From Nostoc carneum NIES-2107 (GTDB taxonomy: Bacteria > Cyanobacteriota > Cyanobacteriia > Cyanobacteriales > Nostocaceae): a DNA stretch of 64,000 nt. The notes beneath the pieces are model-generated. The model made no database searches. It had not been told where the DNA came from and saw only the letters and a list, made by a program, of their open reading frames with translations. Positions 798 to 56,315 of this stretch are shown here, one piece after another (position 1 is the stretch's first letter; the number at the start of each line of letters is the position of its first letter). The position numbers and the translations under genes were made by a program. The stretch lies in contig AP018180.1 of NCBI GenBank assembly GCA_002368155.1, positions 3,846,719 through 3,910,718 on the forward strand, read 5' to 3'.

Positions 798-956
798 GCT
801 GGATATTACTCAAATAGCAGTCAAGAGTCACAGAGACGCGATTAATCGCGTATGGACAAAAGTCAAAAGTCCAAAAATTTGGATTATTGACCATTAACAC
901 ACTTTAAGAAAAAATATGACAATTGCTTAAGCCCTAATAAACTAGTAGAAAATTCT

Positions 957-982
957 AATTTTGAATTTTGAATTTTGAATTC
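957..982. repeat. ATTTTGA short tandem repeat
   Basis: Three to four copies of the heptamer ATTTTGA lie just upstream of the HEAT-repeat gene. This is a short tandem repeat of the type common between genes in Nostocales. Confidence 0.7.
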
Positions 983-1011
983 CCCTTTGGGGTTTGCCTT
1001 CTTGCACTATT

Positions 1012-1770
1012 ATGTATGACGAAGACGACCTAAGCCTACTTGATATAGAAGACGAGCTAGAAAGTCCCTTGGATCGGATGGAACCTCTAACTGCTGAGTC
1101 AGAAGTGGCAAAACCAGATCCCGATGTGATGCTAGTTCTCTTAGAAAATGACCAACCGCAGCAGAGAATGCTAGCGGCGCGTGCGTTTTGTGACATCGAA
1201 GATGCACGTGCGACTCCCCATCTCATCCGGCTGTTGACTGATACCTGTCCCTTAGTGCGGGTGAGTGCAGCCTATGCGATCGGGCGCAATCCCAGTAAAG
1301 ATGCAGTAGAGCCGTTAATTAACCAACTCAACCGAGATTGGAACGGCTATGTCCGCAAAGGTGTAGTTTGGGCTTTAGGAAACTGCCGCGATCGCCGTTC
1401 CTTAGCTCCCCTAACAGATGCTTTAATAACAGATATTTCCGCAGTGCGGTTGTGGGCTGCTAGTGCCTTAGCGCAAATGGCAGATGTTGGTTATGAAGCA
1501 GTTTTAGGGGCAATCCCACCACTAATTGAAGCCTTGGTGAAAGATCCTGTAGCCGCAGTCCGGAGTAACTGCGCTTGGACAATTGGGCAATTGTGCCGCG
1601 AACTTCCATCTAACATCGTTTACGCCACAGCTATCGACGCTTTAATTCAAGCCTTTGCTGAAGACAAAGATTTAGGCGTGAGAGAAGATGCTAAAGCCTC
1701 ACTATTAGGTGTAGGCGACCCCCGTGGTTTACAGTTAATCGAAACCTTAGAACAAGAAGGTTGGTTTTAA
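1012..1770 (+). CDS. HEAT-repeat protein
   Basis: The 252-residue protein has an acidic N-terminus (MYDEDDLSLLDIEDELE) followed by five or so HEAT/PBS-lyase-like helical repeats. These are visible as recurring units such as ATPHLIRLLTDTCPLVRVSA, VEPLINQLNRDWNGYVRKGV and IPPLIEALVKDPVAAVRSNC. Such repeats form a curved solenoid for protein-protein contacts, and cyanobacterial relatives include phycobilin lyase subunits (CpcE/F type) and assembly factors. The specific partner here is unknown. The frame can be extended to a TTG at 994, but the ATG at 1012 fits better because the upstream part overlaps a TTTTGAAT tandem repeat. Confidence 0.8.
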   Translation: MYDEDDLSLLDIEDELESPLDRMEPLTAESEVAKPDPDVMLVLLENDQPQQRMLAARAFCDIEDARATPHLIRLLTDTCPLVRVSAAYAIGRNPSKDAVEPLINQLNRDWNGYVRKGVVWALGNCRDRRSLAPLTDALITDISAVRLWAASALAQMADVGYEAVLGAIPPLIEALVKDPVAAVRSNCAWTIGQLCRELPSNIVYATAIDALIQAFAEDKDLGVREDAKASLLGVGDPRGLQLIETLEQEGWF

Positions 1771-4027: not shown

Positions 4028-4507
4028 CGTGAGTTAATGTTGCTGGGAGGTGAGAAGTTCAACGCCAGCACAGATTGTAATTAATATTTAGATAGATGCG
4101 GAGTGGTTGGGGGTAGCTGTTACCTTGCCACTACAGAGAAGCAAGTTATAGGTAGTTTCTCTAATAAAAGAAGGATAAGGCTTACAGCAGGTTATTATCA
4201 ATGCAGAATTAATGTGTTGAGATGGGAATAAAGATATAGGTTTGGTTATAAAACATTTAAAGCGCGATCGCAATCTGTAAACAAGCTCACTTTTGAGGTT
4301 GATTGTGGATCTGTATCACCTGGATGTCAGTATAAAAGCAGTTTCTGGGGTTTATTACAAATAGATAAGTACTGCTACGTAGAATTGCAAACTATCAAGA
4401 TTTTGCAGTAAAGCTCAGTGTATCTAGCAAAGTTTTATGCCCCTAATTAGCTTAAGATTTCTATAGATACTTTGCTGAATCTCCCCATTTTTAATAAGGG
4501 AAATCAA
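4028..4507. other. intergenic region without a recognised gene
   Basis: These 480 bases lie between divergently transcribed genes and should hold the promoter of the antiporter gene. One HIP1-like site occurs near 4263. An AGGG at 4497-4500 is spaced seven bases from the antiporter ATG and is the likely ribosome binding site. I see no other gene or structured element. Confidence 0.5.
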
Positions 4508-5797
4508 ATGTCTAATTTTGAGCTAGTACTTAAGCTATTGTTACAACTAACAATAATTTTGGTGACTTGTCGCATCGTGACTATTATTGGCACGCGATAT
4601 CTCAAACAAACCGATGTGGTTTGTGAAATGATTGCGGGAGTAATGTTAGGGCCATCATTACTGGGTTTAATTACTCCAGAGATACAGCAATGGTTATTTC
4701 CCAAAGCGCCAATCTTATTGGCGACGGGAGCTAAAATTCCCAATCCTTCGATGTCGATTCTCTTCGCCATTAGTCAGATTGGGTTAGTAATTTATATGTT
4801 TTTGATTGGCTTAGAATTTAATACTGATTTAATTAAGCAGCGTCTTAAAAGTGCAGGTTTAGTGTCTGCGGCAGGAATAATTGCACCTTTTTGCTTAGGT
4901 GCGATCGCAGCTTTTTTCTTATACAATAAGGGCGACCTGTTTAAAGCTGGTGTAACTCCTTGGGCTGCGGCTTTATATTTGGGTGCATCGATGTCGATTA
5001 CCGCATTTCCGATGTTAGCAAGAATGCTTTATGAACGAGGAATTGCGAAAACTACTTTTGGTACTTTAGCTTTAGCCGCAGGTTCTATAGATGATGCAAC
5101 GGCATGGTGTTTACTCGCTATTGTATTAGCTAGTTTAAATGCTAATTCGAGTATTGCCGCTTTTGCAATTGGTGGTGGTATTGGCTATGTTTTATTAACA
5201 ATTTTTGTCGGTAGACCTGCTTTAACTATTTTTACTCGCATCACAAATAAAGATGGTGGAGTGACAATTCAAACATTAACTTTAGTACTCACCGTTTTGA
5301 TGTTTGGGGCTTGGTTTACGGATGCTATTGGTATCTATGCAGTCTTCGGTGCGTTTATTTTAGGCACAGCAATGCCGCGCGGTGAATTTGCCGAACAAAT
5401 ACGCGATCGCACTGAATTTTTGACGACGGGTTTTTTACTACCAATATTTTTTGTATTCTCAGGATTGAATACACAAATAGGATTAGTAAATACACCGACT
5501 TTGTGGGCAATTACATTTTTGATTATTGCGATCGCAATTCTTGGTAAAGGCATTGCTTGTATGCTCGCCGCCAAATTAGCTGGCGAAAGTTGGCGAGAAT
5601 CAGCAACAATTGGGGCACTCATGAATGCTCGCGGTTTGATGGAGTTAATTATCCTGAATATTGGTTTGGAACAAGGAGTAATTACGCCAACTTTATTCAC
5701 TATGATGGTTATTATGGCAATCGTGACGACATTAATGGCATCACCACTGGTTGCCTATTTATTGCAAGGTACGAGGTATGAGAAATCTCTGGCTTAG
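4508..5797 (+). CDS. CPA2-family cation/proton antiporter (Kef/NhaS-like)
   Basis: The 429-residue protein is almost entirely hydrophobic helices, about a dozen, in the pattern of CPA2 sodium or potassium/proton antiporters. Family marks include GVMLGPSLLG (residues 45-53), MFLIGLEF (97-104), SMSITAFPMLARML (161-174) and the paired acidic ion-site residues in GSIDDATAW (Asp195-Asp196). It should exchange cations for protons across the plasma or thylakoid membrane. The ATG at 4508 is preferred over an upstream TTG at 4472 because AGGG is correctly spaced before it. The paralogue at 6227 carries an extra cytosolic half that this protein lacks. Confidence 0.9.
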   Translation: MSNFELVLKLLLQLTIILVTCRIVTIIGTRYLKQTDVVCEMIAGVMLGPSLLGLITPEIQQWLFPKAPILLATGAKIPNPSMSILFAISQIGLVIYMFLIGLEFNTDLIKQRLKSAGLVSAAGIIAPFCLGAIAAFFLYNKGDLFKAGVTPWAAALYLGASMSITAFPMLARMLYERGIAKTTFGTLALAAGSIDDATAWCLLAIVLASLNANSSIAAFAIGGGIGYVLLTIFVGRPALTIFTRITNKDGGVTIQTLTLVLTVLMFGAWFTDAIGIYAVFGAFILGTAMPRGEFAEQIRDRTEFLTTGFLLPIFFVFSGLNTQIGLVNTPTLWAITFLIIAIAILGKGIACMLAAKLAGESWRESATIGALMNARGLMELIILNIGLEQGVITPTLFTMMVIMAIVTTLMASPLVAYLLQGTRYEKSLA

Positions 5798-5859
5798 GGG
5801 TTGGGGATTGAGTATTAGGGACTGGGGATTGGGGATTGGGGACTGGGGACTGGGGATTC
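5798..5859. repeat. GGGGATT/GGGGACT tandem repeat
   Basis: About eight heptamer-like units of the GGGGATTGGGGACT type follow the antiporter stop codon directly. The same unit recurs, on one strand or the other, near 13810, 24690, 26690, 31175 and 59075. Confidence 0.9.
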
Positions 5860-5948
5860 TAAATTAATTTAGTTTTTTCAAAATCGAGATTGCAAGGAAG
5901 AAAGAGAAGACAGCAGAGAAAGCAGAAGAGAAATGACACATCACTCTG

Positions 5949-6074
5949 CAATACTAATCGGTTAAGCGTTTTGAACCCAAAATTGGTTTTGGGGAAAAGG
6001 TTAAAGGTTAAGGATTAAAGGTTTTTTCTTTCCCTTTTCCCATTCCCCTTTTTCCCCTTCACCGACAAGTATTG
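5949..6074 (+). mobile_element. 126-bp MITE with 10-bp target duplication (copy 1)
   Basis: The element runs from CAATACTAATCGGTTAAG to ACCGACAAGTATTG, so its ends are inverted repeats (CAATACT, two variable bases, TCGGT). It is flanked by CATCACTCTG at 5939-5948 and the identical CATCACTCTG at 6075-6084, a perfect 10-bp target duplication. It has no coding capacity. A second copy of exactly the same length, in opposite orientation, lies at 55986-56111. The pair align end to end without gaps, with roughly four in five bases identical by eye. Confidence 0.92.
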
Positions 6075-6086
6075 CATCACTCTGCT

Positions 6087-6151
6087 ATTACCAGTTACCA
6101 ATTACCAATTACCAATTACCCAATGCCCAATGCCCCATGCCCCATGCCCCA
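6087..6151. repeat. TTACCAA and ATGCCCC tandem repeats
   Basis: Four units of ATTACCA-type sequence are followed by CAATGCCC/CATGCCCC units. Such compound repeats occur between many genes in this window. They lie about 75 bases before the second antiporter start. Confidence 0.85.
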
Positions 6152-6226
6152 GTATAAAAGGTTGACATTTTTGAGTGTTATAAAGAATCATCTTAGGGAA
6201 ACCGGATAGTCACTTGCGAGGAAACT

Positions 6227-8404
6227 ATGCACACAGTAATACTCGTTCTGTTTGAGGTGCTGATTGTTATTGGACTGTCTCGGCTAGTAGGACTGGGATT
6301 TAAGTCAATTAAGCAACCGCTGGTAATTGGAGAGATTGTAGCTGGGATTATGCTCGGCCCTTCTCTATTTGGTTTGATAGCTCCATCAGTAGCAGCTACT
6401 TTGTTTCCGCCTGAAGCCGTGCCGTTTTTAAATGTGCTGTCTCAGGTGGGACTGATATTTTTTATGTTTCTGATTGGCTTAGAACTGAATCCCAGATATC
6501 TCAGTGGGCAATTAGAAACAGCAGTTTTGACTTCTCATGTCAGCATTTTGGTGCCGTTTTCTTTAGGAACGCTGCTCGCAGTGTTGCTTTATCCTCTGGT
6601 TTCTAATGCTAGTGTTTCCTTTACCGCTTTTGCCCTATTTTTGGGCGCGGCGATGTCAATTACCGCATTTCCGGTACTGGCGAGAATTATTACAGAGAAC
6701 AACTTGCAAGGAACGCGCTTGGGAACCTTGGCGTTAACTTGTGCGGCGGTGGATGATGTGACGGCTTGGTGCGTGTTAGCAGTAGCGATCGCAGTTGCTA
6801 GAGAAGGTAGTATTGTCAGTGCATGGCCGACAATTATTGAAAGCATTCTCTACATCGGCTTTATGGTAACTGTGGGGCGTTGGTTCCTGCAACGGCTGGC
6901 TACCTACCACCAACGCACGGGACGCTTAAGCCAAATGGTAGTAGCGTTAATTTACATGGGAGTGGTGGCTTCTGCTCTAGTTACCGAATTAATTGGCATT
7001 CACCTGATTTTTGGCGCATTTTTACTGGGTGCAGCAATGCCTAAAAATGCAGATTTGGTGAGAGAACTGGCAGAGAAAACCGAAGATTTTGTCTTAGTAT
7101 TTCTGCTCCCAGTATTCTTTGCTTATAGCGGCTTGCGGACGCAAATTGGCTTGCTCAACCGTCCAGAGTTGTGGTTACTGTGTGCATTAGTTTTAGCAGT
7201 GGCGATCGCAGGCAAGTATATTGGGACTTATGTTGCAGCTCGTGTCAGTGGAATTAATAAGCGGGAAGCCTCAGCCCTTGGTTGGTTGATGAATACTCGC
7301 GGTTTAACTGAGTTAATCGTACTCAATATTGGACTCGAGTTAGGTGTAGTTTCACCCTTACTGTTTACCATGCTGGTGATTATGGCATTGGTAACTACAT
7401 TTATGACCTCACCACTGCTGGAATGGACTTATCCCAAGAAGCTGATCAGGTTAGATGTAGTAGAACCAGAATTAGCAGAAGAAACTGATACACCAACTAG
7501 AGTTGGCGAAGAATACCGAATTTTAGTACCAGTAGCTAATCCTAGCACCCAAAAAGGCTTATTACAGTTAGCAGTTGCGATTGCACTTAACTATCGTCAA
7601 TCTGCTGTGGTTCATCCCCTGAGTCTGATTGAGTTTGAAGAAGACTATGCTTTTGAAAGTACACCAGTTGAGGCTAACCGCTTAATTGCTCAACGTCGCC
7701 AACAGCTAGAAGAGTTAATTAATACTCTCGAACCTGCAACTTCTCGTGCTTATGTACATCCTATTATCCGCACATCAAGCAACGTTGCTAGAGAAACTGC
7801 CCAAATTGCCCAAATTGAGCAACCTAACTTGATTTTAGTCGGATGGCACCGCCCAGCTTTTAGTAATAATCGCTTAGGTGGGAGAGTTGGTCAAATTCTG
7901 ACAACTGCACCCGTAGATGTTGCAGTATTTATCGACCGGGGAGGAGAAAGACTAGAAAGCTTACTAGTTCCTTATTCTGCGAATATTCATGATGATTTAG
8001 CACTGATACTTGCCTTAAGATTGCTGATTAACAGAGATACCTGTATGTTGCGGATTTTACAGGTACGAGCAGAAAATCAGGTTAAGGACGAAATGAGCCA
8101 CGAATTACAAATCATGATGGAGCAATTACCAAACAGTGTACGCGATCGCATCGAAATTCAGATAATTGCAGCTCCAGATTCAATCCAAGCTGTAGTCGAA
8201 GCTTCCGAATTTGTTGATTTGACAATTGCTGGAACTAGCCGCGCTTGGGGTATTGAACGCCAAACTCTAGGAAGATATACAGATGAACTCGCTATTCAAT
8301 GTCGTTCTTCACTGCTCATTACCCGACGTTACAGTCAAGTTACCTCACATTTAGCCTCTGTACTTCCTGAAGTGAGTAGTCCAGAATCAGCAGCTAGGAG
8401 CTAA
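6227..8404 (+). CDS. CPA2-family cation/proton antiporter with C-terminal universal-stress-like region
   Basis: The 725-residue protein has two parts. Residues 1-410 form the membrane exchanger, with IMLGPSLFG (41-49), MFLIGLELNPR (80-90), AMSITAFPVLARI (142-154) and the ion-site pair Asp176-Asp177 in AAVDDVTAW. Residues about 430-700 are soluble and resemble two universal stress protein units (YRILVPVANPSTQKGLLQLAVAIA; NLILVGWHRPAFSNNRLGGRVGQILTTAPVDVAVFIDRG), which in the family bind nucleotides and may gate transport. The ATG follows GAGGA at good spacing. An AGGAG just before the stop probably serves the next gene, four bases on. Confidence 0.92.
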   Translation: MHTVILVLFEVLIVIGLSRLVGLGFKSIKQPLVIGEIVAGIMLGPSLFGLIAPSVAATLFPPEAVPFLNVLSQVGLIFFMFLIGLELNPRYLSGQLETAVLTSHVSILVPFSLGTLLAVLLYPLVSNASVSFTAFALFLGAAMSITAFPVLARIITENNLQGTRLGTLALTCAAVDDVTAWCVLAVAIAVAREGSIVSAWPTIIESILYIGFMVTVGRWFLQRLATYHQRTGRLSQMVVALIYMGVVASALVTELIGIHLIFGAFLLGAAMPKNADLVRELAEKTEDFVLVFLLPVFFAYSGLRTQIGLLNRPELWLLCALVLAVAIAGKYIGTYVAARVSGINKREASALGWLMNTRGLTELIVLNIGLELGVVSPLLFTMLVIMALVTTFMTSPLLEWTYPKKLIRLDVVEPELAEETDTPTRVGEEYRILVPVANPSTQKGLLQLAVAIALNYRQSAVVHPLSLIEFEEDYAFESTPVEANRLIAQRRQQLEELINTLEPATSRAYVHPIIRTSSNVARETAQIAQIEQPNLILVGWHRPAFSNNRLGGRVGQILTTAPVDVAVFIDRGGERLESLLVPYSANIHDDLALILALRLLINRDTCMLRILQVRAENQVKDEMSHELQIMMEQLPNSVRDRIEIQIIAAPDSIQAVVEASEFVDLTIAGTSRAWGIERQTLGRYTDELAIQCRSSLLITRRYSQVTSHLASVLPEVSSPESAARS

Positions 8405-55911: not shown

Positions 55912-55985
55912 CTACTGAAGATTTATTTTATAAATATCCTCTAAGCACGCTACATGAATTACAAAAATCAAATAAGAGTCCTATA

Positions 55986-56111
55986 CAATACTTGTCGGTT
56001 AAAGGCAAAAGGGGAAGGGGAAAAGGGGCAAGAAAAAACCTTTAACCCTTACCCTTTCACCTTTTCCCCAAACCAAATTAAGAGTTGAAAATCCTTAACC
56101 GAGCAGTATTG
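55986..56111 (-). mobile_element. 126-bp MITE with 10-bp target duplication (copy 2)
   Basis: The element has the same ends and exact length as 5949-6074, in reverse orientation (CAATACTTGTCGGT at one end, ACCGAGCAGTATTG at the other). It is flanked by GAGTCCTATA at 55976-55985 and the identical GAGTCCTATA at 56112-56121. The different target sequence from copy 1 shows two independent insertions. It has no coding capacity. Confidence 0.92.
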
Positions 56112-56315
56112 GAGTCCTATATACATTTGTAGTAGCACTGCAAGCTAAAACAGTGCTACTACTAAAGGTTATTATTGATGTCTAGCTGTCTCTAGCCCCT
56201 AATCCCTAGTCCCTAGTTTCTAGCTTCTTCTCTTCTTTGGGCTTGCTGATAGTCAAGCTACCAATATGGTAGTTAAACACAGTGATTTAGTCGAAGAGCA
56301 AATTTCTAAGAAATT

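Follow-up and report, generated by a model that had tools for sequence, protein, structure and literature searches.

Among the closest described systems is Nezha, which was reportedly described by Zhou et al. (2008, BBRC 365:790) and is said to reside in Anabaena variabilis and Nostoc sp. PCC 7120. Excerpts of two papers treat Nezha as a cyanobacterial miniature inverted-repeat transposable element (MITE) and propose its mobilization by IS elements (ISNpu3-like) (PMC10969869, PMC3049150). In excerpts of a further paper, Anabaena sp. strain 90 carries many short MITEs with inverted ends, mostly intergenic (132/147), which are classed as type II for having ends unlike those of any IS in that genome (PMC3542288). 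The MITE that we describe here is likewise a short cyanobacterial one, and may or may not be Nezha itself. As far as the excerpted description of the strain 90 elements allows, it is like them in its short length, inverted ends and intergenic siting, in a related genome, and differs in that its ends resemble ISs of relatives. With the IS4 family (Nterm_IS4), whose target duplications range from 9 to 13 bp, it has in common near-identical 18-bp ends and 10-bp duplications; unlike those ISs it has no coding sequence, and at positions 7-9, where the two ends of an IS agree, its own ends differ. Literature searches on cyanobacterial MITEs (Nostoc, Tolypothrix, Nostoc punctiforme) and IS4 returned no title or abstract opening that names the element, and searches with the end sequences, and for ISNpu3 with Nostoc, found nothing.

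Within the window, by which we mean the whole 64,000-nt stretch of DNA analyzed, copy 1 is a non-coding block of 126 bp (5949-6074, + strand) with imperfect 18-bp inverted ends (CAATACTAATCGGTTAAG / CAATACTTGTCGGTGAAG) at 5949-5966 (+) and 6057-6074 (-), flanked by an exact 10-bp duplication, CATCACTCTG, at 5939-5948 and 6075-6084. It is thus short and lacks transposase coding capacity, and the ORFs of at least 40 aa that touch it, of 42 and 45 aa, both enter from the flanks. Copy 2, also of 126 bp and in the opposite orientation (55986-56111, - strand), is flanked by its own duplication, GAGTCCTATA, at 55976-55985 and 56112-56121. The two are identical at 103 of 126 positions, copy 1 belonging to subfamily A and copy 2 to subfamily B. 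The original prediction had described both copies with their duplications, and its coordinates were exact; it had further read them as a MITE family mobilized by a transposase (IS4-like or related) with the same ends elsewhere in the genome, to be checked by more end-bounded copies across the genome, 10-bp repeats at their flanks, empty sites in relatives that lack the block, and full ISs with the same ends. Copy 1 sits between two + strand ORFs, 4472-5797 and 6227-8404, which, judged by eye, look like putative cation/proton antiporters. Short degenerate tandem repeats of GGGGATT/GGGGACT and TTACCAA/ATGCCCC types, variable among relatives, lie on either side of copy 1 (5797-5865 and 6085-6155). 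Scanned by itself for the end pattern with up to 3 mismatches allowed, the window yielded 4 matches where 0.93 were expected, a weak excess taken alone.

The host, a filamentous cyanobacterium, has a genome of 9.36 Mb in 4 contigs. With up to 2 mismatches allowed, the end pattern matched 306 times across it, compared with 11 for a reversed control pattern, and 100 of these places were listed; with both ends held to the strict pattern there were 40 elements against 0 in the control. Copy 1 as a query had at least 42 matches (40 of 268 candidates scored). From the fetched host-genome loci we assembled 72 distinct copies, all with a recognizable end pair, copies without such a pair being left out. 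An exact 10-bp duplication flanks 37 of the 72 and one with at most 1 mismatch flanks 52, while exact flank matches at 5-9 or 11-13 bp occur at none and at 4 bp at 1; when flanks were permuted among the copies in 2000 shuffles, no 10-bp match arose at 0 or 1 mismatch. The target-site duplication is thus of fixed length, 10 bp. Three members (L025, L098 and L190) are doubtful, and without them, among 69 clear copies, the counts become 37 exact and 51 with at most 1 mismatch. Length is exactly 126 bp in 37 of the 72 copies, with a range of 112-149 bp. With the doubtful rows removed, subfamily A has 26 copies, 9 with exact duplications, and subfamily B has 43, of which 28 have them; mean pairwise identity is 0.89 for A and 0.92 for B (the B figure includes one doubtful row). 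Because B has both the higher share of exact duplications and the higher mean identity, it looks younger than A, and recent. The 37 exact duplications have a weak purine/pyrimidine skew, which may reflect a target preference.

Several variants accompany the family. Two subfamily B copies of 149 bp (L110:2123-2271 and L185:570-718) carry the same 23-base insertion, of GTTCGC-TAGCGTCTCCGCAGGA type, at one place, and a third (L160:601-726), still 126 bp long, carries the inner hairpin segment in the opposite orientation to that of the other copies. A 338-bp nested case (L155:474-811) has degenerate outer ends, whose flanks match at 9 of 10 bases, and encloses a subfamily B copy that has an exact 10-bp duplication of its own. 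A second MITE family, of about 114 bp, is found at L098:496-609 (G000:C1:5424995-5425108); its CAATACGGTTCGGTTAAG-type ends fit the GGT lineage of IS4-family elements considered below, and a BLAST search with it returned 60 matches, many of which cover just an inner repeat containing GATAAATCGCGTCTCTAC.

Relatives record the insertion itself. In two genomes of the same genus as the host, G293 (L226) and G294 (L228), the copy 1 site is empty, with a single CATCACTCTG and no element, while a third genome of the genus, G292 (L197), shares the insertion with both repeats present. Spacers at L227, L229, L230 and L232 (G295, G296 and G297 included) are too diverged to judge. G292 also shares the copy 2 insertion; relatives without copy 2 are diverged on one flank, and its empty site is not clean. 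The exact left-end pattern occurs in at least 88 stretches of genome contigs, and among the 80 left-end matches listed the records are named Nostoc, Calothrix or Nostocales cyanobacterium. Searched against plasmid records, copy 2 had 13 matches (Nostoc 7, Tolypothrix 4, Microchaete 1, Aulosira 1); phage records searched for the MITE gave none. Given the end pairs, the many copies, the 10-bp duplications and the empty site in relatives, the 126-bp block is a MITE, an ordinary sort of element of a known kind. The original prediction therefore held on the identity of the family, on its further copies and their flanks, and on the empty sites.

The insertions avoid open frames: once rejoined, 5 of 72 junctions fall inside an open frame (120 codons or longer), against 106 of 144 control sites in the same sequences at a distance of 350 bp. 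Both copies in the window also fold as single strands better than shuffled sequences do, as RNA (z -3.3 to -4.9) and as DNA (z -2.2 and -4.6). These two observations would suit a structure fixed between genes, for instance a terminator or a regulatory hairpin, rather than a mobile element. However, good folding follows from the inverted ends together with complementary halves, the intergenic bias is explained by selection against gene disruption, and the exact 10-bp duplications and empty sites show that insertion took place, so that we give a fixed structure almost no credence. A secondary regulatory role for the MITE is possible.

Which transposase might move these elements is suggested by ISs in related genomes. 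Among 291 genomes sampled from the order, 46 had matches to the PF13006 profile (IS4 transposase N-terminal); within the family, the transposase of locus L139 matched 155 of 217 genomes at E <=0.001, many of these matches being weak. We inspected 60 transposase loci, 30 from each search, and found paired CAATAC-NNN-TCGGTTAAG ends 1.2-2.7 kb apart at 42; the remaining 18 had no end pair, several being fragmentary or truncated by contig ends. Exact 10-bp duplications flank 29 of the 42 end-paired loci, or 28 of 40 when each place is counted once (L139 equals L233 and L147 equals L239), and these ISs thus fall within the IS4 range of target duplication. By Pfam and NCBIfam the L139 and L125 transposases belong to the IS4 family, with Nterm_IS4 and DDE_Tnp_1 domains, and the L139 translation has Y-2-R-3-E-6-K spacing, which we take to be the IS4 signature. 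G292, the relative that shares copy 1, carries three intact transposase copies of such ISs on contig C4. Its 2168-bp element matches plasmid elements of Tolypothrix sp. PCC 7601 and PCC 7712 at 100.0%, the PCC 7601 plasmid copy being annotated as an IS4 family transposase; at two of its G292 sites there are no matching 10-bp flanks, and the third is cut by the end of the stretch. In the 2.2-kb IS group (L139, L147 and L377) a further ORF, about 125-145 aa long, lies on the opposite strand (953-1390 (-) in L139), and the L139 copy of this ORF matched nothing in Pfam or NCBIfam.

At positions 7-9 of the ends, ISs and MITE part company. Of the 40 distinct ISs of relatives, 39 carry one and the same triplet at their two ends (GGT 13, TGC 9, TTC 8, TTT 5, TGT 4), the exception, L250, having a poor right end. 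Among the 69 clear MITE copies, by contrast, 41 have TGC on the left, 19 have TAC, 4 have TAA and 5 have other triplets, while on the right 59 have TTG, 6 have TTT and 4 have others. The subfamily B left triplet, TGC, is that of the 2.2-kb IS group, whereas TTG is found in none of the ISs examined. Beyond the 18 bp, subterminal similarity between MITE and IS ends was not convincing against shuffles, and the best cases rest on purine-rich stretches.

In the host genome itself, PF13006 had 0 matches, and the transposase of the end-matched L139 IS found one homologue only, 23% identical, whose locus (L086) shows no such ends at up to 4 mismatches. DDE_Tnp_1 has 71 matches in this genome; scanning 43 of these loci (30, plus 13 transposase loci among 20 further stretches) for ends at up to 4 mismatches identified no IS bounded by MITE-type ends, and most of the other 28 equal a scanned one in profile score and size. 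Locus L094, the sole one in which degenerate ends flank a transposase, was rejected as partner, its true IS borders, set by 1401 identical bases in common with L093, lying elsewhere. Among 165 loci and the window, 66 end pairs stand 300-3500 bp apart, and one of them, the nested L155, has flank likeness (10 bp, up to 2 mismatches); many of these loci reach only about 600-1500 bp past the element, so that a longer IS could escape. Finally, in the host-genome loci examined, 148 of 152 distinct near-perfect ends are followed by a MITE-like interior, the other four being L098 (another MITE family), L105 and L187 (which start MITE-like and break off) and L051 (unlike the MITE). An autonomous element with the same ends is thus found in relatives and not among the host loci examined. 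The predicted full IS with such ends was accordingly not recognized there, and the predicted IS4-like partner stands for relatives, where such ISs with 10-bp duplications exist, and not for the host genome.

A different, unrecognized transposase still resident in the host might nonetheless move the MITE, and two observations would fit it: the right-end TTG is absent from all 42 end-paired IS loci, and subfamily B looks recent, with exact duplications at 28 of 43 clear copies, yet no partner was found in the host loci examined. We nevertheless consider a resident transposase improbable, since the scanned DDE_Tnp_1 loci, L094 among them, and the MITE-like interiors speak against it, and relatives carry IS4-family elements whose 10-bp duplications and similar ends fit the MITE. 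The host-genome copies instead look like orphans, with no IS bearing these ends among the loci examined, and orphan MITEs are a known phenomenon; the missing resident partner bears on the type of MITE. The case for this absence is strong but not complete, as part of the genome was examined and a strongly divergent partner is conceivable. A further, more speculative suggestion, which we think possible though on balance unlikely, is that an orphan population was amplified fairly recently by an IS4-type transposase since gone, perhaps with its plasmid, that the lineage-specific triplet common to both ends of an IS is a recognition code, and that a MITE with unlike triplets could be a hybrid substrate for more than one transposase.

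Our preferred reading, to which we assign a probability of roughly 85%, is that the family is a non-autonomous MITE which inserts with a 10-bp stagger and whose ends are probably recognized in trans by a DDE transposase of the IS4 family that carries an Nterm_IS4 domain. Such a transposase would recognize the 18-bp MITE ends, move the element and insert it where the target is cut with a 10-bp stagger, and the direct repeats would arise when this cut is repaired. The IS4-family transposases of relatives would act on the MITE, its movement would be cut-and-paste, and the supplying IS would have been lost from the host genome or have acted from a plasmid now gone. An IS4-family partner in relatives is likely, judging from sequence comparison, because elements of that family there have near-identical ends and the same duplication length, and the intact copies in G292, which shares copy 1, count in its favor. 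Counting against it are the lack of such a transposase in the host loci examined, the end triplets that differ from left to right with TTG in no IS examined, the unconvincing subterminal similarity, and the two G292 sites lacking matching flanks.

The family thereby offers a clean case of a MITE multiplying in cyanobacteria: it has an empty site, its duplication is of defined length, and sister genomes supply candidate transposases. Trans-mobilization by the IS4 family and the possible role of positions 7-9 thus become directly testable.
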